DNA of 64,000 nucleotides, taken from Lachnospiraceae bacterium. GTDB taxonomy: Bacteria; Bacillota; Clostridia; Lachnospirales; Lachnospiraceae. Below are positions 27,770 through 37,670 of the stretch, piece after piece (positions within the stretch are counted from its first letter, which is position 1; every line of letters starts with the position of its first letter). The notes under the pieces are model-generated. The model did not search any database. It was not told the origin of the DNA and saw nothing but the letters and a program-made list of their open reading frames with translations. The translations under genes were made by a program, and so were the position numbers. The DNA lies in NCBI GenBank assembly GCA_016286555.1, contig JAEETA010000005.1:1-64000 (forward strand), read 5' to 3'.

Positions 27770-27990
27770 GGGGTGCCTCCTGTACCAAGGGTTGCCTCGT
27801 TACGCTTTCAGCGTATTCCCGCGCAGCTCTCCTGTAAATCTATGTATCGTAGAGTTTGGGGATGGGCGGTATATTCTTACTCTCGTAAAGCAAGAAAAGC
27901 ATAACACATCTCGCGCACATCGGCATCCGTGATCCAGGAGAAAGGAGGCAGTGAGGATAGAAAGGGGCAGGTGTGGAAGAGGGAGCAAGA

Positions 27991-28181
27991 TTGCGGATAG
28001 GAACGCATCCACACAAGCTCCTTATCCGCAAAATGAGGGAAGAGCGAGGAGGGAAGGGAGCAAGATTGCGGATAGTAGCGCCCCCACGCAAGCATCTTAT
28101 CCGCAAAAACCGAGAAGGCCACCCCGAGTAAGGATCAAGATTGCGGATAATAGCGGTTCCTCTCAAACTTCTTATCCGTAA
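27991..28181 (+). repeat. Palindromic 75-bp repeat array A (3 units)
   Basis: Three 41-bp palindromic units start at 27991, 28066 and 28141, exactly 75 bp apart. Each begins TTGCGGATA and ends TATCCGCAA (the last one TATCCGTAA), with a 23-bp middle containing GCG and CGC arms; 34-bp spacers separate them. The array ends 16 bp before a copy of the tRNA-Gly 3' end. Open frames through it are only a consequence of the 75-bp period and have no ribosome binding sites. Confidence 0.93.
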
Positions 28182-28196
28182 TCACCGTCTCGCAGG

Positions 28197-28216
28197 AGCG
28201 GGTGATGGGAATCGAA
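28197..28216. repeat. Copy of tRNA-Gly 3' end (putative att site, module 1 left)
   Basis: AGCGGGTGATGGGAATCGAA is identical to the last 20 bases of the tRNA-Gly gene at 36411-36430. There is no complete tRNA here. It is the left boundary of the first module. Confidence 0.85.
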
Positions 28217-28237
28217 GTAGTATATCGGCTCGAAAAC

Positions 28238-28305
28238 CCAGTAAAATCAAGGAGGAAAACTCCGTCAGGTGACTTGTAATAGTCGTGTAATAGTTTTTGT
28301 ACTAC
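28238..28305 (+). repeat. Left-end conserved motif and 11-bp-spaced direct repeats, module 1
   Basis: CCAGTAAAATCAAGGAGGAA begins 41 bp after the start of the att copy, as in module 2. GTAATAG follows at 28276 and 28287 (11 bp apart) and a related GTACTAC at 28299. Such spaced repeats look like arm-type integrase sites; this role is inferred. Confidence 0.6.
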
Positions 28306-28399
28306 AGATACTTTATTATTCTTTTTATTTTTTCTTTCGCAAAAATCAAAATTGATTAAAAATGCGAAATGGAATATACTTTTTTTGAGGTGAATTATC

Positions 28400-29593
28400 A
28401 TGAAACTGATCAAAAGAGATTATTATCTTAATAGACTCCTGGCGGTAAAAAACATACCGGATATCAAAGTGATCACCGGCGTCAGACGAAGCGGAAAGTC
28501 CAGGCTCATGGACTCGTTTATTGAGCAAATATCAGATGAAGAGAATGCCAATATCGTTAGGATCAAGCTTAACTTAAAGAAAAATGAGAAGCTGTTGTAT
28601 GCGGACGGGCTATACAATTACATTGAGGAGTCTTATGACTCAACGAAAGAGAACTATTTGTTCATTGATGAGGTCCAGTTGTGTGAAGGATTTGAAAGAG
28701 TCATAAACAGTATATACGAGGAAGAACTGTATGACATATATCTGACCGGATCCAATGCCTTTTTGCTTTCTAGCGATTTGGCAACGCTGTTCGGTGGAAG
28801 AGTTTTTGAGATTAGCCTATATCCTTTTTCTTTCCAAGAATTTCTAGCTTATTACCCGGAGACAGATATAGATCGTGCATTTGATGAATATGTGAAAAAA
28901 GGTGGAATGGCAGGCTCATATCTGTATAAAACGGATGACGATGCCAGGAAATATGTAAATGGAATCTATAGAACCACGATTGCGAAAGATATCGTAAGAA
29001 AGTTCAAAATAGAAAACGAAGACCTGCTGATCATGATTGGTAATTTTCTGATGGATAATATCGGAAGCCAGACATCCATCAGGAATGTTGCCTCAAAACT
29101 AACATCCGGAACTTACAAGACAAATGATAAAACAGTAGGGGCTTACATTAGCTACCTATGCCGAGCTTTTCTGTTCTATCCGATTCAGAGATACGATATT
29201 AGAGGAAAAAAATATTTGGAATCGGATCAGAAATATTATTTGGCAGATTTGTCATTTCGCTTCTCGGAGATAGGGACAAAAAATGCTGATTATGGTCATC
29301 TATATGAGAATCTGGTAGCTATTGAGCTTTTTCGCAGAGGATACGAGGTTTATGTTGGGAAATTATATGAAAAGGAAGTGGACTTCGTAGCAATCAAAGA
29401 GGGCGAGAAGCTGTATATTCAGGTCTCGGATGATATTTCGAGAGACGAGACATTTGCAAGAGAGGTATCGCCTTTGTTGAGCATCAAGGATGCTTACCCT
29501 AAAATGCTCCTGGCCAGAACAAAACACGATAGAAGCCAGTATGAAGGCATACAAATCATAGATATAGCCAGGTGGCTTGTTTCGCAAAAATAA
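28400..29593 (+). CDS. ATP-binding protein with DUF4143 (AAA_14 family)
   Basis: 397 residues, complete. The N-terminal AAA domain has Walker A GVRRSGKSRL (about 27-36) and Walker B YLFIDEVQL (about 86-94), then YLTGSNAFLLSSDLATLFGGR as sensor region. The C-terminal DUF4143 nuclease-like region includes YLADLSFRFSE and LYENLVAIELFRRGYEVYVGKLYEKEVDFVAIKEGEKLYIQVS, with the E..D.. ExK-like pattern of restriction-type folds. Cellular role of the family is not established. AT-rich codon use sets it apart from the backbone. GAGGTG precedes the ATG. It is the first gene of module 1. Confidence 0.92.
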   Translation: MKLIKRDYYLNRLLAVKNIPDIKVITGVRRSGKSRLMDSFIEQISDEENANIVRIKLNLKKNEKLLYADGLYNYIEESYDSTKENYLFIDEVQLCEGFERVINSIYEEELYDIYLTGSNAFLLSSDLATLFGGRVFEISLYPFSFQEFLAYYPETDIDRAFDEYVKKGGMAGSYLYKTDDDARKYVNGIYRTTIAKDIVRKFKIENEDLLIMIGNFLMDNIGSQTSIRNVASKLTSGTYKTNDKTVGAYISYLCRAFLFYPIQRYDIRGKKYLESDQKYYLADLSFRFSEIGTKNADYGHLYENLVAIELFRRGYEVYVGKLYEKEVDFVAIKEGEKLYIQVSDDISRDETFAREVSPLLSIKDAYPKMLLARTKHDRSQYEGIQIIDIARWLVSQK

Positions 29594-29823
29594 AAAAGAT
29601 TGAAATTTGCGAAAAGCTACGATCGGTTCTTTATATCTTCATCTAAACGAGCGCTAACAGTTGCGAACGTTGATGCTGAGTTATGTAGTTTTTGATATTG
29701 TATTCATTCAGTACCCGGAATATGTAGTTATGGTGGTTTTGGGATCCGATGAATAAAAAGGGATTGATGAGAACCTTTCAGGGAAGGATTTATACGCACA
29801 ATGACATATAAGGGGGATTTGGC

Positions 29824-30429
29824 GTGGCTAATGAATTGAAATTGAAAGCTGGCTCTAAAATTTCTTCTGATACGATTCTCTATGAAGGATTTCAGAAGTA
29901 TGAGGAACATATCATAGCCAATGTTGGAATCGACAAGATTGATGACGTTTTTCAGCACTTCATCGCCATGCATGACGAACCGCTATTCTTTATTCTGGAA
30001 CTTCCGGCAAAGGTGGATGATGAAGAGGAAGTGACGCCCGGAGTTCTGAAAACCCAGCACAAGGATGTTTATTACATGGATGGTTGCACCCAGGAAGAAG
30101 CGCTTACCATTCTCATGCGAGTGGGGAATCTTCTTTACAATGACGGATTGTCTTCCTTCGGGTTTGGCGGGCATGAGAGTAACGATGAGATCATGTTTGG
30201 AAAATACAATGTTCTCACTCTCTATAGCACCAATATAGGCAAGTACGATGATTTCTTTGAGCCACATGAAATAGAGGAGACAGAGGAAATCGTCACAGCA
30301 TGGGATACTATCTCTGAAAAGACCCCAGGGATAAGCGAGCGCTATGAGTCAGAAGGTAAGACCGTTTATGATATTCCCGAGATGTTTGCGGATTGGGGAA
30401 TCTACCTGGCGGAACAGAGAGAGGAATGA
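29824..30429 (+). CDS. Hypothetical acidic protein, immunity-like
   Basis: 201 residues from a GTG start with AGGGGG seven bases upstream. Very acidic, with no signal peptide or membrane segment. FFILELPAKVDDEEEV, DGCTQEEALTILMRVGNLLYNDGLSSFGFGGHESNDEIMFGKYNVLTLYS and a C-terminal WDTISEKTPGISERYESEG suggest a compact globular domain. The acidic composition and setting resemble immunity proteins of polymorphic toxin systems, but no cognate toxin lies next to it and I do not recognise the family. Confidence 0.75.
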   Translation: MANELKLKAGSKISSDTILYEGFQKYEEHIIANVGIDKIDDVFQHFIAMHDEPLFFILELPAKVDDEEEVTPGVLKTQHKDVYYMDGCTQEEALTILMRVGNLLYNDGLSSFGFGGHESNDEIMFGKYNVLTLYSTNIGKYDDFFEPHEIEETEEIVTAWDTISEKTPGISERYESEGKTVYDIPEMFADWGIYLAEQREE

Positions 30430-30433
30430 TGCC

Positions 30434-30571
30434 ATGGTGGATAAAATAGCAAACATATATGCGCGTATTGAGACGGAAGAAAAGAAACATACAGATGTCT
30501 TGATGATGGATGCTGAAACTCTAGATATAGAACTGGAGAAAGGGTATGTGGATATGCAGGCGGACGTGTAA
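30434..30571 (+). CDS. Very short ORF, possible truncated protein
   Basis: 45 residues from the ATG at 30434, four bases after the previous stop (MVDKIANIYARIETEEKKHTDV, shown to 20 residues by its first part, ends GYVDMQADV). The site upstream (GAGGAATGATGCC) is plausible. It may be a remnant or a tiny antitoxin-like protein. Coding status is uncertain. Confidence 0.35.
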   Translation: MVDKIANIYARIETEEKKHTDVLMMDAETLDIELEKGYVDMQADV

Positions 30572-30632
30572 AAACTGCAGCGCTGGTTTTTGCAGATATT
30601 CGTCGTGATTGGATTGTTTAAGGAGACATGAT

Positions 30633-30884
30633 ATGTTATCGGATATCGCAGGGGATGTCAGTCGCTGTATTTCAAGCAGAAAAGCTTTTTTAAACGGAGA
30701 TGCGAAACAGGATTATTCTTTGTTTTGGCTTCAAAGAGTGATCGATGCCTGCAACAATGAAATCGATGAAAGCGAACTTCCGGAGTTCCTGGATGAGGTA
30801 AACGAGATTCGCGAGTATCTTAAAGGTAATCGGGATGAGGAGTATATTTTGCGTTACTGGAAGCAGTACGAACAAATTGGGTAA
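30633..30884 (+). CDS. Small hypothetical protein
   Basis: 83 residues from the ATG at 30633, with AAGGAG seven to eight bases upstream. Helical and acidic (LFWLQRVIDACNNEIDESELPEFLDEVNEIREYL). It ends directly against the start of the acetyltransferase gene, so the two are probably co-transcribed. No family recognised. Confidence 0.65.
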   Translation: MLSDIAGDVSRCISSRKAFLNGDAKQDYSLFWLQRVIDACNNEIDESELPEFLDEVNEIREYLKGNRDEEYILRYWKQYEQIG

Positions 30885-31385
30885 ATGAATATAGTATACA
30901 GATTAGGGACCAAGCAGGATTTAGATACAATTTGTCTGCTGATCCATCAAGCTATAAATGAGATGGAAAGCCACGGTATATATCAGTGGGACGACATATA
31001 TCCTTCACGAAAAGATTTTGAAGAAGATATCGAAAAACAATCATTGTTTCTGGCATATTTGAATGAGAGTTTGGTTGCTCTGTATGTGATAAGCGCTGAA
31101 TGCGATGAGCAATACAAAAACGGACACTGGGAATGTGAAGAGAAAACCGCATATATATTGCATAGATTCTGTGTCTCTCCGGTTTTCCAGAATCAAGGTA
31201 TAGGAAAGACAGTCTTGCTGCATGTTGAAGAACAGATCAAAGAGATGGGATATCAATCCATCAGGCTGGACACGTTTACCGAGAATCCCTTTGCACAAAG
31301 ACTGTATTTGCATAATGGATACGAATCCAGAGGATATGCAAATTGGCGCAAAGGGAGGTTTGATCTGATGGAGAAGAAGTTATAA
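30885..31385 (+). CDS. GNAT family N-acetyltransferase
   Basis: 166 residues, normal GNAT length. The acetyl-CoA-binding loop is FQNQGIGKTVLLHVEEQIKEMG (Q/RxxGxG/A) at about residues 102-122, and the later NPFAQRLYLHNGYESRGYANW is motif B. It transfers acetyl from acetyl-CoA to an unknown amine. It begins immediately after the preceding stop. Located in the accessory module, so a resistance or toxin-modifying role is possible but unsupported. Confidence 0.9.
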   Translation: MNIVYRLGTKQDLDTICLLIHQAINEMESHGIYQWDDIYPSRKDFEEDIEKQSLFLAYLNESLVALYVISAECDEQYKNGHWECEEKTAYILHRFCVSPVFQNQGIGKTVLLHVEEQIKEMGYQSIRLDTFTENPFAQRLYLHNGYESRGYANWRKGRFDLMEKKL

Positions 31386-31434
31386 CTTCAGTTAAACCTG
31401 ACCGAGGAAAAATGGTTTGTAGAGGAGGAACCTT

Positions 31435-31665
31435 ATGCCACATGTGGAGATTCAATGCTTTCCGGGAAGAACGGAGGAGCAGAAGCAACTTTGCGCTGAG
31501 AAGATAGCGGATGTGGTTGCGGAGACGTTGGGTTGCAAGACTTCCAGTGTCTCCGTCGCAATCAAAGAAGTCGTAGAGGCGGACTGGAAAGAACAGGTCT
31601 GGGACAGATGCGTCGTCCCAGACGCGGAGTATCTCTACAAGAAGCCAGGGTATACCTGTGACTAG
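31435..31665 (+). CDS. Tautomerase (4-oxalocrotonate tautomerase superfamily)
   Basis: 76 residues. The catalytic N-terminal Pro follows the initiator Met (MPHVEIQCFPGRTEEQK), and SVSVAIKEV matches the second strand of the fold. AGGAGG lies before the ATG. Substrate unknown. It is the last gene of module 1 before palindrome array B. Confidence 0.85.
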   Translation: MPHVEIQCFPGRTEEQKQLCAEKIADVVAETLGCKTSSVSVAIKEVVEADWKEQVWDRCVVPDAEYLYKKPGYTCD

Positions 31666-31699
31666 ATCATCGTGGGCAGGTGTTGGTCTTGAAGCGCAA

Positions 31700-31890
31700 T
31701 TGCGGATAATAGCGCCCTTATTCAAGTTCTTTATCCGCAAAAAGGAAGAGCCAAGCGTTGGAGCGGAAGCGAGATTGCGGATAGTAGCGCTCCAACACAA
31801 GCTTCTTATCCGCAAACCACAAGAAGTAGGCGCTGACTCGAAAGCAAAATTGCGGATAATAGCACTCCCACTCAAGCATCTTATCCGCAA
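31700..31890 (+). repeat. Palindromic 75-bp repeat array B (3 units)
   Basis: 41-bp palindromic units begin at 31700, 31775 and 31850, again exactly 75 bp apart, all in the same orientation as array A. Each has TTGCGGATA and TATCCGCAA arms. The 34-bp spacers differ from one another. The array starts 34 bp after the tautomerase stop. Confidence 0.92.
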
Positions 31891-31933
31891 AATCGGGGAA
31901 GAGCGAGCAGAGAAGAGCGAGCAGAGAGGAGCA

Positions 31934-32130
31934 AGCGGGTGATGGGTCGCACGAGGTCCGGGGGACCTCGGAATTGCGACGACCGAAGCGAAGCGGAGAC
32001 TGAGGCGGAATAAGAAAAAGGTCCGGTGGACCTTTTTCCCGCCGAACCGACCGAGCCGGAGGTTCAGAGCGGGTGATGGGGCGCACGAGGTCCGGTGGAC
32101 CTCGGAATTGCGCCGACCGAGCTGGAGCGC
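31934..32130 (+). repeat. GGTCC hairpin repeats with tRNA-derived 13-mers
   Basis: AGCGGGTGATGGG occurs at 31934 and 32068, each followed by a GAGGTCC/GGACCTC hairpin and GGAATTGCG. Between them AAAAAGGTCC, GGT, GGACCTTTTT (32015-32037) forms a symmetric terminator-like hairpin. The same elements recur near 36.0-36.3 kb. Confidence 0.85.
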
Positions 32131-32184
32131 GAGGTGTCACACCTAACGGTGAGACGAACCCTTTGGGTTCGAGGTCTCGCCTCC

Positions 32185-32230
32185 TTACGAAAAAGGTCCC
32201 TCAGGATATCCTGAGGGACCTTTTTCGTAA
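32185..32230. terminator. 46-bp perfect palindrome (terminator-like)
   Basis: The 23-bp arms are exact complements and meet at GATATC with no loop; each end has a run of five A/T bases (GAAAAAGG and CCTTTTTC). It lies one base before the tRNA-Gly 3' copy at 32232, the same position the real tRNA terminator holds at 36367-36410, so it is probably a copied or converted tRNA terminator. Confidence 0.8.
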
Positions 32231-32231
32231 C

Positions 32232-32251
32232 AGCGGGTGATGGGAATCGAA
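32232..32251. repeat. Copy of tRNA-Gly 3' end (boundary of modules 1 and 2)
   Basis: AGCGGGTGATGGGAATCGAA, exact copy of 36411-36430. It ends module 1 and begins module 2; the distances to the neighbouring copies are 4035 and 4179 bp. Confidence 0.85.
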
Positions 32252-32272
32252 ATAACGTACGCCCCTGGAAAT

Positions 32273-32330
32273 CCAGTAAAATCAAGGAGGAAAGTAGCGC
32301 CAGGCACTATGTACCAGCTTTGTACCAATC
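32273..32330 (+). repeat. Left-end conserved motif and 11-bp-spaced direct repeats, module 2
   Basis: CCAGTAAAATCAAGGAGGAA again starts 41 bp after the att copy. GTACCA occurs at 32311 and 32322, 11 bp apart, in the position of the GTAATAG repeats in module 1. The repeat sequence differs but the spacing is kept. Confidence 0.6.
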
Positions 32331-32528
32331 CGGTAGTTCATTCTTGGAATAATGGGAATTATATAAGTTGAGTTTAGAAAGGCCATTGCGCTATAGGTAT
32401 AATCACCATAGATGTTTCTATGGAACAACTCACTTTTTCATGGAGGCTGATTGTTTAGCAATTGAACGTCTAAAATAGCAAAAGCCCGTCCATGCATGCG
32501 TAAAATTAAAATAAATGCACGCATAGTA

Positions 32529-32557
32529 TTGACTGTTGGCAATTTACGAGCTATTAT
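32529..32557 (+). promoter_or_regulatory. Promoter of the fic gene
   Basis: TTGACT at 32529 and TATTAT at 32552, spacer 17 bp. An ATGCGT/ACGCAT inverted pair (32496-32524) flanks an AT-rich core just upstream and touches the -35, so it may be an operator. Confidence 0.65.
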
Positions 32558-32589
32558 GATTAAAACAGTTCAATAAGAGGGGGAGAGCG

Positions 32590-33660
32590 ATGGAGTACAT
32601 TAAGGATAGAGTTGACGATTATGATGCAAACTATTTCGTTAATGAGCTGGTTGATGCCTCAAAACTTCTAGGACTGCTTGAAGCTAAAATTTCGGGGTAT
32701 CAATTTAATGGGATTATTATTCCTATGCTGCACAAAAAAGAGGCGATATCCTCGATGTACATTGAGGGGACGCAGACCACCATCACGGATGTGTATAAGA
32801 ACGAGGTGAAATCTTCATCCATTGATAATCGCGTCATGCTCGAGGTAAAAAATCATACAAAAGCCTTGGCCTATGGTGCTGATGTGTTGAGAGTAGAAGG
32901 TTTTTCGCATTCTTTTATAAAAAAAATACATGAACTGATGCTGACGAACATTGTTTCGAAGCAAAAGGAGGATTCACTCGGAAGGTATAAAACACAGAAT
33001 AACTTTATTGTAAACAGTTTGGGCAAAGTTGTTTTTACCCCGCCATCTTTTGAAGATACTCAAAAATATATGGACGAATTGATCGACTATATGAATGACA
33101 CAACGGATGGCGTAAATCCTCTGATAAAAGCAGCGGTTGCACATGCCCAATTCGAGTCTATCCATCCCTTTGAGGATGGAAATGGAAGAGTGGGTAGATT
33201 GCTGGTAAGTCTGTATCTTTTTAGAGCAAGGGTTATCAATTTCCCGTTCTTTTATATAAGCGAGGCTATCAGTCAGGATAAGGCTGTTTACTATAATCAG
33301 CTTACTGGGACAAGAACTGGTGATTATAATGCCTGGATTAAGTTCTTCCTGCAGAAGTTGATTGTGCAGGCAAACAATCACATAAAGTATATCGACGATC
33401 TGAATAACCTATATCTGCGCACGAAAAACACGCTCACAAACTGTATTAACAGTCCTAAATACGATAGTATCCTGGAGTGTCTGTTTACGCAACCGGTACT
33501 GACATCGGGTTATCTGGCTGAGAAGCTGAACGTTTCCGTAGGCCAGGCAAACAGATATTTAGTAGCCTTGGAAGAAAACTCCATTTTGCAGGGGGATGAT
33601 AAGAAACGAAACAGGCGGTTTTACTTCTCTGAATTGATCATCCTAGCAGAAAGAACGTAA
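32590..33660 (+). CDS. Fic family protein (class II, self-inhibited)
   Basis: 356 residues. The Fic core motif is IHPFEDGNGRVGR (catalytic His about 192). The N-terminal helix carries the inhibitory motif SMYIEG (S55, E59, G60), the class II arrangement, so its AMP-transfer activity is probably self-restrained. The C-terminal 90 residues form a winged helix (LAEKLNVSVGQANRYLVALEENSIL), suggesting DNA binding or autoregulation. GGGGGAGAG precedes the ATG and a good promoter lies upstream. Targets are unknown. First gene of module 2. Confidence 0.94.
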   Translation: MEYIKDRVDDYDANYFVNELVDASKLLGLLEAKISGYQFNGIIIPMLHKKEAISSMYIEGTQTTITDVYKNEVKSSSIDNRVMLEVKNHTKALAYGADVLRVEGFSHSFIKKIHELMLTNIVSKQKEDSLGRYKTQNNFIVNSLGKVVFTPPSFEDTQKYMDELIDYMNDTTDGVNPLIKAAVAHAQFESIHPFEDGNGRVGRLLVSLYLFRARVINFPFFYISEAISQDKAVYYNQLTGTRTGDYNAWIKFFLQKLIVQANNHIKYIDDLNNLYLRTKNTLTNCINSPKYDSILECLFTQPVLTSGYLAEKLNVSVGQANRYLVALEENSILQGDDKKRNRRFYFSELIILAERT

Positions 33661-34039
33661 GACCGAATGAAGATAGATCTGTTGGAAAGAGGTGATGCGT
33701 ATTGGGGGAGCAGGAAATAGCTTGAAAACGTATCTTGGGTGAAATGCCATTGATGATACAACCCCATTACTTGTAGAAAAGGATTGAAAAAAATTGAATA
33801 TGGAAAAAAAGAAAAAACGTATAACCGTTGGCGCGGCTATACGTTCTCTCAAAGAAAGATGTAAGTATCTTTCCCAAATGCTTAACAGAATTTTACTACA
33901 TTCTTTCCGAGAGAGCAACGAGAATTTGTTACTCGTAAACTCAGTTTTGCTACAAATGTAGCGGAAAGGAAAGGATGTAGTATGTTTATTTTTAGCGCAA
34001 TAATTCCTTTTCTGTCATCGTTGACAGGAGGGGATATTT
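33661..34039. other. Gene-free interval between fic and the EndoU-like gene
   Basis: No convincing protein gene. A hairpin at 33816-33845 (AACGTATA paired with TATACGTT) is followed on the minus strand by a long T-rich run, so it would terminate minus-strand transcription, although no minus-strand gene is seen. A 23-codon ORF from 33981 overlaps the next gene start and may be a remnant of a longer toxin N-terminus. Confidence 0.5.
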
Positions 34040-34528
34040 ATGGGAACAACTAAGACCGGAAGAGTATTAAATACCCGTGGTGCAGCGGGGACTGCCAGCC
34101 AATTTGCGGTAGTTCATTCTAATGAAGGAGAGTACACTAAACCGGGCAAGGATAACCTCATCAGGCTTAAAAATGGTGGCCATGGGCAGACCGGAATGAA
34201 TGAGCTCGACAAATACGGGATTCAATATGTCGTTGAGAAAACATATCCTAATGGAGTTAGAGTCGGGCGTGTCCCAAATCACAAGAATAAAGCTAAACAA
34301 AGGCCTGGGGGACAAACATGGTTTCCGAGGAATTGGACTGGCAAGGACATCAAACGTGCCGGTGAACATGTAGCGAACCTAAAAGGGAACAGGCATTCAA
34401 AAGATGGCGTTGCAGTTTTTGGCATGTGGAAAGGCGTTCGTGTAGGAGTAATTCGTACTCATGGTCAGATAGCAACTATCTTCCCGGATTCGAAACAGCC
34501 GACTTCAAAAGGAGGAAAGAGAAAATGA
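34040..34528 (+). CDS. EndoU-like nuclease toxin domain protein
   Basis: 162 residues. The segment GGHGQTGMNELDKYGIQYVVEKTYPNGVRVGRVPNHKNK, then GGQTWFPRNWTGKDIKRAGEHV and VRTHGQIATIFPD (FPxxW and a T..FP terminus) resemble the bacterial EndoU nuclease domain used as a C-terminal tip by polymorphic and contact-dependent toxins. Here it is nearly alone: there is no N-terminal secretion or repeat region, so it may be an orphan tip or a toxin-antitoxin style nuclease. AGGAGGGG precedes the ATG. The stop overlaps the start of the next gene (ATGA). Confidence 0.72.
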   Translation: MGTTKTGRVLNTRGAAGTASQFAVVHSNEGEYTKPGKDNLIRLKNGGHGQTGMNELDKYGIQYVVEKTYPNGVRVGRVPNHKNKAKQRPGGQTWFPRNWTGKDIKRAGEHVANLKGNRHSKDGVAVFGMWKGVRVGVIRTHGQIATIFPDSKQPTSKGGKRK

Positions 34529-34884
34529 ATGCTGAGAAACTAAAAGAAGTGATAAAACACCGCGAATATGTTGATGAAATCAGTCAGAGCGAGTGGTATG
34601 AAGAGATAGAAAAATGTCAAAACCAAGTGACAGATATTATAACCGAAGATATTTCATCTGCGACAGAGTATCTTACTCATCAGTGTACAGCCATGGAGTA
34701 TGTTTATATCGGCGAGATTTTGGATGATGTCATTGAAAAAATACCCAGCAGAGAATTTGTGGAGAGTTTTAAAAGACTTAAAGACAAATTCCCGAAAGAA
34801 TATTCTGAATATTGTATTGAAAATGACATAATTCGTGCTGAAAACATACTGAAGTGGGAGGAGGAACATGGGAAAAAAGATTGA
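34525..34884 (+). CDS. Putative immunity protein for the EndoU-like toxin
   Basis: 119 residues from the ATG at 34525, with GGAGGA upstream and a 4-bp overlap with the toxin stop. Strongly helical and acidic (YVDEISQSEWYEEIEKCQNQ, then KFPKEYSEYCIENDIIRAENILKWEEEHGKK), no signal peptide. Position, overlap and charge fit an immunity protein neutralising a basic nuclease; the family was not recognised. Confidence 0.7.
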   Translation: MNAEKLKEVIKHREYVDEISQSEWYEEIEKCQNQVTDIITEDISSATEYLTHQCTAMEYVYIGEILDDVIEKIPSREFVESFKRLKDKFPKEYSEYCIENDIIRAENILKWEEEHGKKD

Positions 34885-35545
34885 GAATCTTATTGACGAA
34901 GGATTCCGAGTATCTTTAGTTGAACGGGCTTTCTTTGACGGGGTGTTTGAAATACCACATATACCAGGACCGGACAAAATTGTGATTCCGAAGGGAATGG
35001 TTCCATTTTCATTGCGAAATCATAGTGATAATTTTGAAGATTTCGTATGTTTTTATGAGCATGACATAAAGTTCCGAGAGATCCTCACGAATACAGAGAA
35101 TTGTGTGGAGGATCTTAAGCGGTTTCCGGGCATCGTTTCACCGGATTGCTCATTATATATTGATGCGCCCTTGTGTGTACAGATAGCCGATATATATTTA
35201 AACCGAGCTATCGGATATTATTTGCAACAACAGGGTATCTATGTCGTTCCAAATATCCGTTGGGGAGATGAAAGAACTTATACCTCGGAACTTTTAGGAG
35301 AAAAGGTTGCATTTCAGGGAGTCGATAAACATAGTATCGTGTCTGTAGGTACTTATGGACAGATACAATCGTCAGAGGCGAAAAGGTACTTTAGAGAAGG
35401 ATTAGTCGAGATGCTTAATGAATTAGAGCCAGAAGTGGTTTTGGTGTATGGATCCATGCCGGAAAAGATCTTTGGTGATCTGAAAGACAGGACATGTTTT
35501 ATTGCATTTCCAGACTGGATGACGAGAAAAAAGAGCGTCCAATAA
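34868..35545 (+). CDS. DUF4417 domain protein
   Basis: 225 residues. The DUF4417 pattern is visible: FPGIVSPDCSLYIDAPLCVQIADIYLNRAIGYYLQQQGIYVVPNIRWGDERTY, then SVGTYGQI and VVLVYGSMP near the end. Function is unknown; the family is common on phages and mobile elements. It overlaps the putative immunity gene by 17 bp and has GGAGGAGG before its ATG, so it is part of the same transcript. A strong terminator follows at 35590. Confidence 0.88.
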   Translation: MGKKIENLIDEGFRVSLVERAFFDGVFEIPHIPGPDKIVIPKGMVPFSLRNHSDNFEDFVCFYEHDIKFREILTNTENCVEDLKRFPGIVSPDCSLYIDAPLCVQIADIYLNRAIGYYLQQQGIYVVPNIRWGDERTYTSELLGEKVAFQGVDKHSIVSVGTYGQIQSSEAKRYFREGLVEMLNELEPEVVLVYGSMPEKIFGDLKDRTCFIAFPDWMTRKKSVQ

Positions 35546-35589
35546 TATATTTTTAGATAGACGGAGATCTATACTCGAAATGAATAGAG

Positions 35590-35628
35590 AGGCATCAGGA
35601 ATCCGGATCGGAGACCTGATGCCTTTTT
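35590..35628 (+). terminator. Rho-independent terminator after the toxin-immunity-DUF4417 transcript
   Basis: AGGCATCAGG pairs with CCTGATGCCT over a 15-base loop, followed by TTTTT. Confidence 0.85.
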
Positions 35629-35677
35629 GATGGAAAGGTTTGGTTTTCTGTGGTGAGTGGGAGGGAAGATTCGGGGC

Positions 35678-36019
35678 CGACGGATAATAGCACCCCCACG
35701 CAAGCATCCTATCCGCAGAAATCCAGCTGGCCAACCCGAGCGAGGAGCAAGATTGCGGATAGTAGCGCCCCCACGCAAGCATCCTATCCGCAACAATCCG
35801 GCTGGTCAACTTGAGCAAGGAGCAAGATTGCGGATAATAGCGCCCCCACGCAAGCATCCTATCCGCAGAAATCCGGCAGGCCAACTCGGGCCAGAAGCAA
35901 GATTGCGGATAGTAGCGCCCCCACGCAAGCATCTTATCCGCAAAAATTCAGATGGCCAACTCGGGCAAGAAGCAAGATTGCGGATAGTAGCGCCCCCCAC
36001 GCAAACTTCTTATCCGTAA
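35678..36019 (+). repeat. Palindromic 75-bp repeat array C (5 units)
   Basis: Units start at about 35678, 35753, 35828, 35903 and 35978, all 75 bp apart. The 41-bp palindromes have TTGCGGATA and TATCCGCAA-type arms (first and third with one or more changes; the last is 42 bp and ends CCGTAA). Spacers are more alike than in arrays A and B (shared CTGGCCAAC and AGCAAGA-like segments). The last unit runs into TCACCGTCTCGCAGG and a tRNA-derived 13-mer, identical to the end of array A. Confidence 0.92.
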
Positions 36020-36050
36020 TCACCGTCTCGCAGGAGCGGGTGATGGGTCG

Positions 36051-36192
36051 CATGACGTCCGGGGGACGTCAGAATTGCGATGACCGGAGCGAAGCGGAGA
36101 CTGCATGGCGTCCGGGGGACGTCAGAATTGCGACGACCGGAGCGAAGCGGAGACTGCATGGTGTCCGGGGGACGCCGGAATTGCGCCGACCG
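36051..36192 (+). repeat. 53-bp tandem repeat with internal hairpins (about 2.7 copies)
   Basis: Copies start at 36051, 36104 and 36157. Each has a GACGTCC/GGACGTC-type hairpin, AGAATTGCG, then ACCGGAGCGAAGCGGAGACTG. Related single copies occur near 31.95-32.1 kb and 36.28 kb. A terminator-like AAAAAGGTCC/GGACCTTTTT hairpin (36221-36243) matches the one at 32015-32037. Confidence 0.85.
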
Positions 36193-36366
36193 AGCGGGTG
36201 ATGGGGTGAGGCGGAATAAGAAAAAGGTCCGGTGGACCTTTTTCCCGCCGAACCGACCGACGAAGGAGCGGGTGATGGGGCGCATGGCGTCCGGGGGACG
36301 CCAGAATTGCGCCGACCGAGCCGAAGGCGAGATACGAACCCTATGGGTTCGGGAGCTCGCCTTCCT

Positions 36367-36410
36367 CACACGAAAAGCCCTCAGGATTTCTCCTGAGGGC
36401 TTTTCATGTG
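36367..36410 (-). terminator. tRNA-Gly terminator
   Basis: On the minus strand, immediately after the tRNA 3' end, AAGCCCTCAGGA pairs with TCCTGAGGGCTT and is followed by TTTTCG. Confidence 0.85.
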
Positions 36411-36481
36411 AGCGGGTGATGGGAATCGAACCCACGTGTCCAGCTTGGAAGGCTGGTGTTCTACCATTGAACTACACCCGC
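36411..36481 (-). tRNA. tRNA-Gly (anticodon TCC)
   Basis: 71 bases. Acceptor stem GCGGGTG pairs with CACCCGC; the D-arm TTCAATGGTAGAA, the anticodon loop CTTCCAA (anticodon TCC) and the T-arm GTGGGTTCGATTCCCAT are complete. Discriminator T, no encoded CCA. A TTGACA/TACAAT promoter lies upstream and a terminator directly downstream. Its 3' 20 bases are repeated at 32232 and 28197. Confidence 0.95.
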
Positions 36482-36512
36482 AAAGTACTTATGCACTTCA
36501 ACAACAAATGGT

Positions 36513-36541
36513 ATTGTAGCGAAAGCGGAGAACCTTGTCAA
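36513..36541 (-). promoter_or_regulatory. tRNA-Gly promoter
   Basis: Consensus TTGACA (36541-36536) and TACAAT (36518-36513) with a 17-bp spacer on the minus strand, about 32 bp before the tRNA 5' end. The -35 lies within a hairpin (AGCGGAGA/TCTCCGCT) that could also terminate murG transcription. Confidence 0.85.
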
Positions 36542-36593
36542 GGGCTCTCCGCTTTTTCTGTGCAGAATCGAACCGAAAGCAGTCCGCGTACCT

Positions 36594-37670
36594 TTATTCC
36601 GTCTTCCCGCACTCTTCATCGATCAGCTGGATGATGGTGGGAATGGCGTCCAGCATGGGGCTGGCAGCCATGGTGTCGATGTATTTCTGACGGTCGTGGT
36701 AGAGCTCGTTTACTTTCTTCACCAGATACTTCGTGGTCAGATCCTCCTGGTCGATGAGAATGGAGAAGCCCTGGGCCTGGAAGGATTCCGCGTTCTGTAC
36801 CTGGTCCCCCCGGGAACCGGAGGAGGTGGGGAGCGGGATCAGGATGTTGGGTTTCTTCAGGGCCAGCAGCTCGCAGATGGCATTGGCGCCGGCACGGGAG
36901 ATCACCACATCCGCCATGGCGAAGAGGTCGCCCAGCTCGTCGGTGATGTACTCGAACTGCTTGTAGCCGGGAGTGGTCAGCAGCAGATTGTCCATTTTGT
37001 CCTTGCCGCAGAGGTGGCAGATCTGATAGAGGGGCAGGAGCTTCGGCAGCGCGTCCCGGACCGCCTGGTTCACGGCTGCGGCGCCCTGGCTGCCGCCGAT
37101 GATGAGGAGCACGGGCTTGCTGTCGTCGAATCCGCAGAGCTCGCGGCCCTTGGCGGGATCACCGTCAAAGAGCTCCTTCCGGATGGGCGTGCCGGTGAGC
37201 ACAGCCTTGTCGGAGGGGAGATTTTCCAGCGCCTCGGGGAAATTACAGCAGATCTTCTTCGCAACCTTCGCACAGATCCGGTTGGCCAGACCCATGGAAA
37301 CATCGGACTCATGAATGATGCAGGGAATCTTCAGGGATGCTGCGGCCCGCACGATGGGGACGCTGACGAATCCGCCCTTGGAAAAAACGATGTCCGGGCG
37401 CTCCTTCTTCAGGATGTCCTTCGCTTCCCGGTACCCCCGGATGACGCGGAAGAAATCCGCGAAATTCTTGGAATCCAGGCTCCTGCGGAACTTTCCCGTA
37501 GCAACGCCGAAATAAGGGATGCCCAGATCCGAGATCAGCCGTTTTTCGATGCCGTTGTAGGAACCGATGTAGGAAATATCGTATCCTGCTTCTTTTAATG
37601 CGGGGATCAGTGCGATGTTAGGGGTGACATGGCCTGCGGTGCCGCCGCCGGTCAGAACGATTTTTTTCAT
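36594..37670 (-). CDS. murG: UDP-GlcNAc:lipid I N-acetylglucosaminyltransferase
   Basis: 358 residues from the ATG at 37670. It adds GlcNAc to lipid I on the inner membrane face to make lipid II for peptidoglycan. Signatures: IVLTGGGTAGHVTPN at the N-terminus, SKGGFVSVPIVRAA, CIIHESDVSMGLANR, IIGGSQGAAAVN and VISRAGANAICELLALKKPNILIPLP in the UDP-GlcNAc-binding half. The start has GAGG about five bases upstream; an upstream extension to 37724 is not conserved. It is a single gene away from any cell wall cluster. Confidence 0.95.
   Translation of the reverse strand: MKKIVLTGGGTAGHVTPNIALIPALKEAGYDISYIGSYNGIEKRLISDLGIPYFGVATGKFRRSLDSKNFADFFRVIRGYREAKDILKKERPDIVFSKGGFVSVPIVRAAASLKIPCIIHESDVSMGLANRICAKVAKKICCNFPEALENLPSDKAVLTGTPIRKELFDGDPAKGRELCGFDDSKPVLLIIGGSQGAAAVNQAVRDALPKLLPLYQICHLCGKDKMDNLLLTTPGYKQFEYITDELGDLFAMADVVISRAGANAICELLALKKPNILIPLPTSSGSRGDQVQNAESFQAQGFSILIDQEDLTTKYLVKKVNELYHDRQKYIDTMAASPMLDAIPTIIQLIDEECGKTE

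Follow-up and report, generated by a model that had tools for sequence, protein, structure and literature searches.

Results

Copies of a tRNA-Gly 3′ end bound two modules

The stretch analysed here (the window) comprises the first 64,000 nucleotides (C44:1-64000) of a 113.5-kb contig of a Lachnospiraceae bacterium, whose 2.93-Mb assembly is 89.8% complete and divided into 83 contigs. ARAGORN identified one tRNA gene, tRNA-Gly(TCC), and no second tRNA anywhere in the 64-kb window. Behind this gene lie two modules of about 4 kb, bounded by copies of the tRNA 3′ end and carrying, on their tRNA-proximal sides, a short palindrome that we call X (Table 1). The 20-mer AGCGGGTGATGGGAATCGAA was found at 28197, 32232 and 36411, on the + strand only, with spacings of 4035 and 4179 bp. 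The 13-mer AGCGGGTGATGGG occurs at 28197, 31934, 32068, 32232, 36035, 36193, 36267 and 36411. These positions and intervals had been reported in a first-pass annotation made from the sequence, and were recovered exactly. A dinucleotide-Markov model predicts 2.9e-3 chance occurrences of the 13-mer and 3e-7 of the 20-mer per strand in 64 kb. Across the 2.93-Mb assembly the 13-mer has eight forward and no reverse matches, every one of them in the window.

Read in the tRNA orientation, the 20-mer consists of the T-loop, the 3′ strand of the T-stem and the 3′ strand of the acceptor stem. The copies lose identity at the 5′ strand of the T-stem, as expected for recombination within the T-loop. The eight 13-mers fall into two groups: three have a T-loop and represent attachment site (att) copies, while five directly follow palindrome X. 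The first-pass annotation had treated all eight as one kind of boundary, which had to be given up because five follow X and units of X plus tRNA end are found without cargo behind many tRNAs (see below).

The left ends of the modules are 75% identical over 80 nt. Their right ends have in common a 54-nt block (32001-32054 and 36207-36260, 100% identical), together with hairpins and repeats of 75-bp period, and 51 nt of the stretches ending at the 13-mers at 28197 and 36035 align with 96% identity. The cargo has a G+C content of 0.41 and 0.40 in the two modules, compared to 0.53-0.55 in the flanks, and Pfam assigns different protein families to the two cargo blocks. The modules therefore have, as originally described, the same left end, the same type of right end and different AT-rich cargo. 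The repeat of 75-bp period that flanks each cargo block is a second palindrome of 41 bp, TTGCGGATA-n-TTATCCGCAA. It is also present on contig C5, with no tRNA in the 18 kb fetched there.

The absence of a recombinase from the modules, also proposed earlier, was borne out by Pfam, which detected no recombinase domain in the nine cargo open reading frames (ORFs) at E<=0.001. At the same threshold, no integrase, transfer or relaxase gene was identified among them by Pfam, NCBIfam or PADLOC. Both modules hold candidate anti-phage genes, the ATPase in module 1 and the Fic protein in module 2, the PADLOC labels being names of known or candidate families of defence proteins and not tests. Judged by its position, the 119-aa protein of module 2 is a possible immunity partner of the EndoU-type nuclease.

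Table 1. Features of the tRNA-Gly(TCC) locus, in window coordinates
Feature	Coordinates	Strand	Source
75-bp-period repeats, distal flank; best match is the G012 repeats	27982..28190	+	
Module 1 distal end: att 20-mer 28197-28216, end motif 28238-28255	28197..28260	-	
Module 1: AAA_14/DUF4143 ATPase, PADLOC candidate PDC-S01 (E 7e-141)	28400..29593	+	Pfam, PADLOC
Module 1: 201-aa ORF, no family match (Pfam, NCBIfam, PADLOC)	29824..30429	+	
Module 1: 91-aa ORF, no Pfam family; weak PADLOC HamA match (E 1.6e-4)	30609..30884	+	
Module 1: GNAT acetyltransferase	30885..31385	+	Pfam
Module 1: tautomerase, PptA-like, slightly below NCBIfam cut-off	31435..31665	+	Pfam, NCBIfam
75-bp-period repeats, tRNA-proximal of module 1 cargo	31691..31900	+	
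X type 2, then 13-mer 31934	31945..31985	-	
X type 1	31998..32053	-	
X type 2, then 13-mer 32068	32079..32119	-	
Terminator-like hairpin behind displaced 3′ end at 32232, 23-bp perfect arms	32185..32230	-	
Module 2 distal end: att 20-mer 32232-32251, end motif CCTCCTTGATTTTACTGG 32273-32290	32232..32295	-	
Module 2: Fic/DOC protein; PADLOC SoFic (E 8e-89), under NCBIfam SoFic cut-off	32590..33660	+	
Module 2: EndoU-type nuclease; 88% aa identity to L039 (G008)	34040..34528	+	Pfam
Module 2: 119-aa protein; 74% aa identity to L039 (G008)	34525..34884	+	
Module 2: DUF4417 protein; 84% aa identity to L039 (G008)	34868..35545	+	Pfam
75-bp-period repeats, tRNA-proximal of module 2 cargo	35669..36020	+	
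X type 2, then 13-mer 36035	36046..36086	-	
X type 2, tandem	36099..36139	-	
X type 2, tandem, period ~53 bp	36151..36192	-	
X type 1, then 13-mer 36193	36204..36259	-	
X type 2, then 13-mer 36267	36278..36318	-	
Terminator-like hairpin directly behind tRNA, 22-bp arms	36365..36412	-	fold
tRNA-Gly(TCC), target gene; T-loop and 3′ half are the repeated sequence	36410..36481	-	ARAGORN, Rfam RF00005
Proximal 20-mer att copy inside tRNA	36411..36430	+	

The distal ends match those of integrase-bearing elements

Both modules are closed by an end motif, approximately CCTCC-n-TTTTACTGG, about 18 nt ahead of the T-loop. In 31 genomes of the genus, the pattern CCTCCTN{0,4}TTTTACTGG has six exact matches, two of which are the window modules; all six directly precede a T-loop and tRNA 3′ half. 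We aligned 12 distal ends from tRNA-Gly and tRNA-Leu loci, with the motif covered in 11 rows (the excerpt from genome G002 is short). The T-loop TTCRANT and the following CCC are invariant or nearly so, the spacing of the motif is constant to within 1 nt, and each end bears the 3′ end of its own tRNA. The motif contains TTACTGG in nine of the 11 rows, and the two ends from genome G008 have CTACAGG and TTACAGT. The end of the G002 element reads CCTCCTTTCTTTTATGGGA.

Elements with such ends that also carry an integrase were found behind tRNA-Gly in G002 (7.0 kb) and behind tRNA-Leu(tag) in G025 (8.7 kb), and their integrases are 67% identical. A PF00589 integrase adjoins the end motif in G021 (L040), and a contig of G003 that ends in the motif (L033) carries relaxase and MobC/NikA genes. 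At E<=1e-30 this integrase family is present in six of the 31 genomes, and neither the window genome (G000) nor G008 is one of the six; the search in the window genome, in which no integrase of the family was detected, did not extend to serine recombinases. Many of the compared genomes are fragmented assemblies, some of them broken near these repeats.

An empty site and a moved cargo block

The comparison with related genomes suggested by the first-pass annotation revealed an empty site. On contig C124 of G012, murG (82% aa identity), tRNA-Gly, one hairpin unit, the repeats and a helix-turn-helix (HTH) gene (82% aa identity) are kept, and the locus, syntenic on both sides, is without both modules (8 kb). 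In G026, murG and tRNA-Gly are accompanied by a distantly related HTH homolog (36%), and neither a copied tRNA end nor a hairpin was found at this locus.

Behind tRNA-Leu(tag) in G008, copies of the tRNA 3′ end are located at +175, +3465 and +6627. The first module there contains EndoU, the 119-aa protein and DUF4417, and is 77% identical at the nucleotide level to window positions 33811-35532. Insertion of the same cargo has therefore taken place at two tRNA species, and small modules in tandem are not peculiar to the window. A single module was observed in G005.

Palindrome X follows tRNA genes across the genus

The 144-nt unit adjoining the window tRNA is predicted to fold into three hairpins (-91.6 kcal/mol, z -10.8). 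When window positions 27800-36600 were searched with Rfam, only the tRNA reached its gathering score and the other listed matches fell below theirs, so the right-end hairpins were rejected as a known RNA family; X itself matched no Rfam family. Two models were built for X, R1 for type 1 and R2 for type 2. In the 31 genomes R1 gave 29 matches (18 genomes) and R2 gave 58 (22 genomes). All seven matches in the near-complete genomes G001 and G002 are on the same strand as a tRNA gene and downstream of it. Six are at a distance of 90-114 bp; the seventh is 10.4 kb away, an inserted element lying in front of it.

After matches shorter than 39 nt and duplicate contexts had been dropped, the 84 matches of the genus set gave 75 unique contexts; for some of the 58 R2 matches no locus had been fetched. 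A tRNA gene lies within 450 bp of 61 contexts, and 57 of these contexts are downstream of it on the same strand. We compared the sequence following X with the 3′ half of the nearest tRNA within 450 bp (in the family set described below, of the best-matching tRNA within 350 bp). The tRNA's own 3′ half follows X in 49 of the 57 units (<=2 mismatches in 12), compared to 448 of 2124 (21%) in the non-cognate control, a value that is high because leucine tRNAs are alike. X-bearing tails were found at Gly-tcc, Gly-gcc, Leu-aag, Leu-cag, Leu-tag, Leu-caa and Arg-acg, and at Met the hairpins are reversed. Of the 57 units, 24 have the 5′ half of the T-stem exactly ahead of X, a count made without a control, which places X in a T-loop for that part of the units. 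At 15 of the 19 distinct loci with a 3′-end copy within 300 bp, the first copy is 142-180 bp behind the tRNA; at the remaining four it is at +197, +236, +261 and +278.

The first-pass annotation had also considered that the repeat might prove widespread and unlinked to cargo. This is true of the 13-mer with its hairpin, and untrue of the 20-mer with the module left end. We also considered that the tail units might be sense-antisense-sense copies of the tRNA; an antisense acceptor was present in 11 of 57 units compared to 177 of 2124 (8%) in the control, and the idea was dropped as too weak.

At one of the loci (L100, G001:C1:197000-212000) a 10.3-kb element is flanked by tRNA-Leu(aag) on one side and by an older X tail on the other. 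It has a PF00589 integrase on the tRNA side and a D5_N/DUF5906 primase-type protein, and one ORF that appears terminase-like by eye is without a Pfam match.

X in other Lachnospiraceae

With stricter filters, R2 matched 121 of 397 genomes of the Lachnospiraceae family. The type-1 pattern was found in genome contigs in 28 stretches, titled Lachnospiraceae, Lachnoclostridium or Agathobacter. The family set of X comprised 103 unique contexts (85 loci) of 113 matches (93 loci), drawn from 28 loci beyond the genus, 5 of G188 and 60 chosen among the matches listed, and leaving aside the 15 loci of G220 and the rows of G000 and G002. At least 48 of the 103 contexts are within 350 bp of a tRNA gene, this being a lower bound since seven of the other 55 have less than 350 bp of sequence on the left. 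X is therefore not strictly bound to tRNA genes in the family. The cognate 3′ end follows X in 35 of the 48 contexts, compared to 82 of 2201 (3.7%) in a control that drew single tRNAs and is slightly biased toward the observed value where tRNAs cluster.

The stem of X shows strong covariation in an alignment fitted to the structure of the model: 99.0% of cells are paired, changes on both sides number 183 compared to 36.9 in shuffles, and the covariation score is 0.474 compared to 0.02-0.07 for slid versions. Covariation of this kind means that pairing has been kept, and cannot separate RNA from DNA structure.

Several copies of X lie within other structured sequences. By eye, X lies in the T-loop of a tRNA-Lys-like sequence within a tRNA cluster (L216, G317:C36, near 6065), and tRNA-Pro(cgg) with its terminator is duplicated in G386 (L228, C12), where the variable region of the second copy holds X. 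Tandem arrays of X with a period of ~48-53 bp were seen, also by eye, at L224, at L214 and in the window. Matches to the yjdF (azaaromatic) riboswitch in G179 (L150/L318, C17) and G355 (L153, C92) contain X and still score above the gathering threshold; in G179 X is placed in what aligns as the apical loop. R2 matched one of the 16 riboswitch loci fetched, that of G179, and the sibling genome G457 (L317, C250) has, by eye, a different hairpin at that place in its riboswitch, whose aptamer likewise scores above threshold.

X also occurs in protein genes. In G164 (L252/L291, C17) it forms a net in-frame insertion of 51 bp (17 aa) in a C_GCAxxG_C_C redox protein, whose 69% identical homolog in G039 (L292, C28) is without the insertion, and at L287 it lies in-frame within an aminotransferase. 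In G220 (L176-L190) X is part of a larger repeat dispersed over one 3.2-Mb contig (16 matches), with no tRNA in the 15 loci fetched. This dispersed repeat rules out that X stands beside a tRNA in every genome.

Discussion

Origin of the modules

The modules are probably accreted, integrase-less elements that were inserted through the T-loop of tRNA-Gly(TCC) and would be mobilisable only with an incoming relative. Repeated integration at the tRNA by elements that now have no integrase had been proposed from the sequence, and is supported by the empty site in G012, the shared distal ends and the cargo block at a second tRNA. In the mechanism that we envisage, tyrosine-integrase elements of the integrative mobilizable type, like those at the tRNA-Gly and tRNA-Leu genes of relatives, would recombine within the T-loop. 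Each insert would give the tRNA a new T-loop, 3′ half and terminator, and displace the old 3′ half to its far end. Two such insertions would have occurred head to tail, both now without integrase or transfer genes, and the module adjoining the tRNA would be the younger, to judge from its position. Copies of the tRNA tail, adjoining and partly interrupted by X, lie between the tRNA and each cargo block and account for the five extra 13-mers and the common right end. We infer the crossover in the T-loop, the order of insertion, the decay from an integrase-bearing ancestor and the dependence on an incoming relative; descent from a complete element is suggested by the shared end sequences.

Several observations weigh against this interpretation. 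The end-motif pattern read backwards gives an equal count, six matches in the 31 genomes, so that the weight of the motif lies in its position beside T-loops and not in its count; the places matched by this control were left uninspected. The window modules yielded no remnant of an integrase or transfer gene. A 120-aa ORF of the second G008 module, which by eye resembled an integrase C-terminus, had no Pfam match and was rejected as a remnant. Three PF00589 proteins encoded elsewhere in the window genome, one of them cut by a contig end, could act as helpers, and a genome that is 89.8% complete and in 83 contigs could miss a helper integrase. G012 could have lost the modules instead of never having carried them. 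The gene-less units of the window are nearest the target, opposite to the arrangement in Streptococcus salivarius (PMC7563491).

A dedicated satellite, that is, a stable integrase-less cassette regularly mobilised by a helper integrase in trans, with the hairpins possibly as recognition sites, is an unlikely alternative. Two modules have both ends and open reading frames, the EndoU block is found at another tRNA in G008 and so has changed site, and G008 has a similar tandem layout behind tRNA-Leu, with a lone module in G005. Against this, the window genome is without a helper integrase of the family at the threshold used, and the six carriers exclude both G000 and G008; hairpin units without cargo are present at many tRNAs, and a second site was observed for just one cargo block. 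We consider it improbable that the locus arose by local tandem duplication and repeat-mediated shuffling, through homologous recombination between tRNA 3′ segments, 75-bp repeats and hairpins, with cargo acquired otherwise. Exact tandem repeats of a tail unit do occur at Gly-gcc in G109 (L219), and the 96% identity between the stretches ending at 28197 and 36035 fits such events, but the two cargo blocks are of different protein families and both modules end in a motif common to integrase elements at other tRNAs. Captured integron-like cassettes, with X as an attC-type folded single-strand recombination site, are very improbable. In their favour, X forms an imperfect hairpin in which part of one arm is unpaired, covaries strongly and lies on the tRNA-proximal side of both modules. 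Against them, X also occurs behind cargo-less tRNAs, in-frame within protein genes and in the loop of a riboswitch, and at their distal borders the modules have copies of the T-loop and not X. A casposon-like duplication of the target was also considered and was not taken up.

The nature of X

With slightly less than even confidence, we propose that X is an undescribed mobile palindrome of ~51-54 bp, distributed across the Lachnospiraceae, that settles in the hairpin loops of structured genes. These would be mainly the T-loops of tRNA genes or of their tail copies, and also the apical loop of the yjdF riboswitch and codons for protein loops; the host stem would be left intact and the tRNA's own 3′ end copied or captured. 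X would then be a structure-guided selfish element, and the decorated tails could later serve as landing pads for integrative elements. Our preferred but unproven account of the tails is that integrations or duplications leave tail copies behind and that X inserts into the T-loops of these copies.

Among the papers listed, our literature search found none on the accretion of integrase-less islands in Lachnospiraceae. The present analysis documents such accretion in this family, with candidate defence cargo (PADLOC SoFic and PDC-S01), and places one cargo block behind two different tRNA genes. With X it can be tested whether selfish DNA tolerates, or even prefers, loops in structured RNA, and X accounts for copies of tRNA ends that one would otherwise mistake for the borders of integrations.

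Comparison with known systems

In tyrosine-integrase islands in tRNA genes, the displaced tRNA 3′ end forms a direct repeat, and the T-loop lies in the shared core. The window modules share the displaced 3′ end and the T-loop core, and differ in lacking an integrase. They are closest to cis-mobilizable elements (CIMEs), as these are described in PMC5704250 and PMC7563491. CIMEs likewise have no integrase or transfer genes, are flanked by att copies and carry cargo; they can lie head to tail at the 3′ end of a gene, with related integrase-bearing elements at similar sites. CIMEs are also derived from integrative conjugative or mobilizable elements and are mobilised in cis once a functional element has accreted beside them. 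In Streptococcus salivarius, CIMEs of 1.2-13 kb, a range that includes the sizes of our modules, occur together with gene-less microCIMEs of 130-220 bp, and the most decayed pieces are farthest from the target (PMC7563491). In the window, att copies (the 20-mer with T-loop, at three places) lie on both sides of each module and the nine cargo ORFs include no integrase, transfer or relaxase gene (E<=0.001). An origin from an integrative conjugative or integrative mobilizable element is possible: the distal ends match those of the integrase elements and of the L033 contig with relaxase and MobC, and no gene remnant was found in the modules. The modules differ from the CIMEs so described in their Lachnospiraceae host, in an apparent T-loop crossover at both Gly and Leu tRNAs, and in the presence of X between tRNA and cargo.

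The hairpin units resemble the microCIMEs of PMC7563491 in being gene-less, of matching size and associated with a duplicated 3′ end of the target; unlike these, they end distally in X and not, by eye, in the end motif of an integrative element, and they are nearest the tRNA. The units were rejected as microCIMEs because they have no integrative-element end (by eye) and are nearest, not farthest from, the target. A further difference from the microCIMEs described there is that similar hairpins are found behind a variety of tRNAs, in most cases together with the cognate end.

Like the palindromic elements of Rickettsia and the CGTC/GTAG repetitive extragenic palindromic (REP) elements (PMC3733652), X is short, palindromic, multi-copy, and both intergenic and in-frame, the insertion in the G164 protein gene being an in-frame palindrome of the Rickettsia type. 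As with them, no mobilising gene was seen linked to X, for which no systematic search was made. A terminal CGTC tag is described for some Rickettsia-type elements (PMC3733652); by eye, X has no such tag in the 103 contexts and no GTAG foot, and genes for REP-associated tyrosine transposases (RAYTs) were not searched for. X differs from the elements of PMC3733652 in its sequence, its length of ~51-54 bp, its bulged two-helix stem and its concentration behind Lachnospiraceae tRNA genes. The islands add a member to a class already known; what is new is the tRNA tails that bear X.

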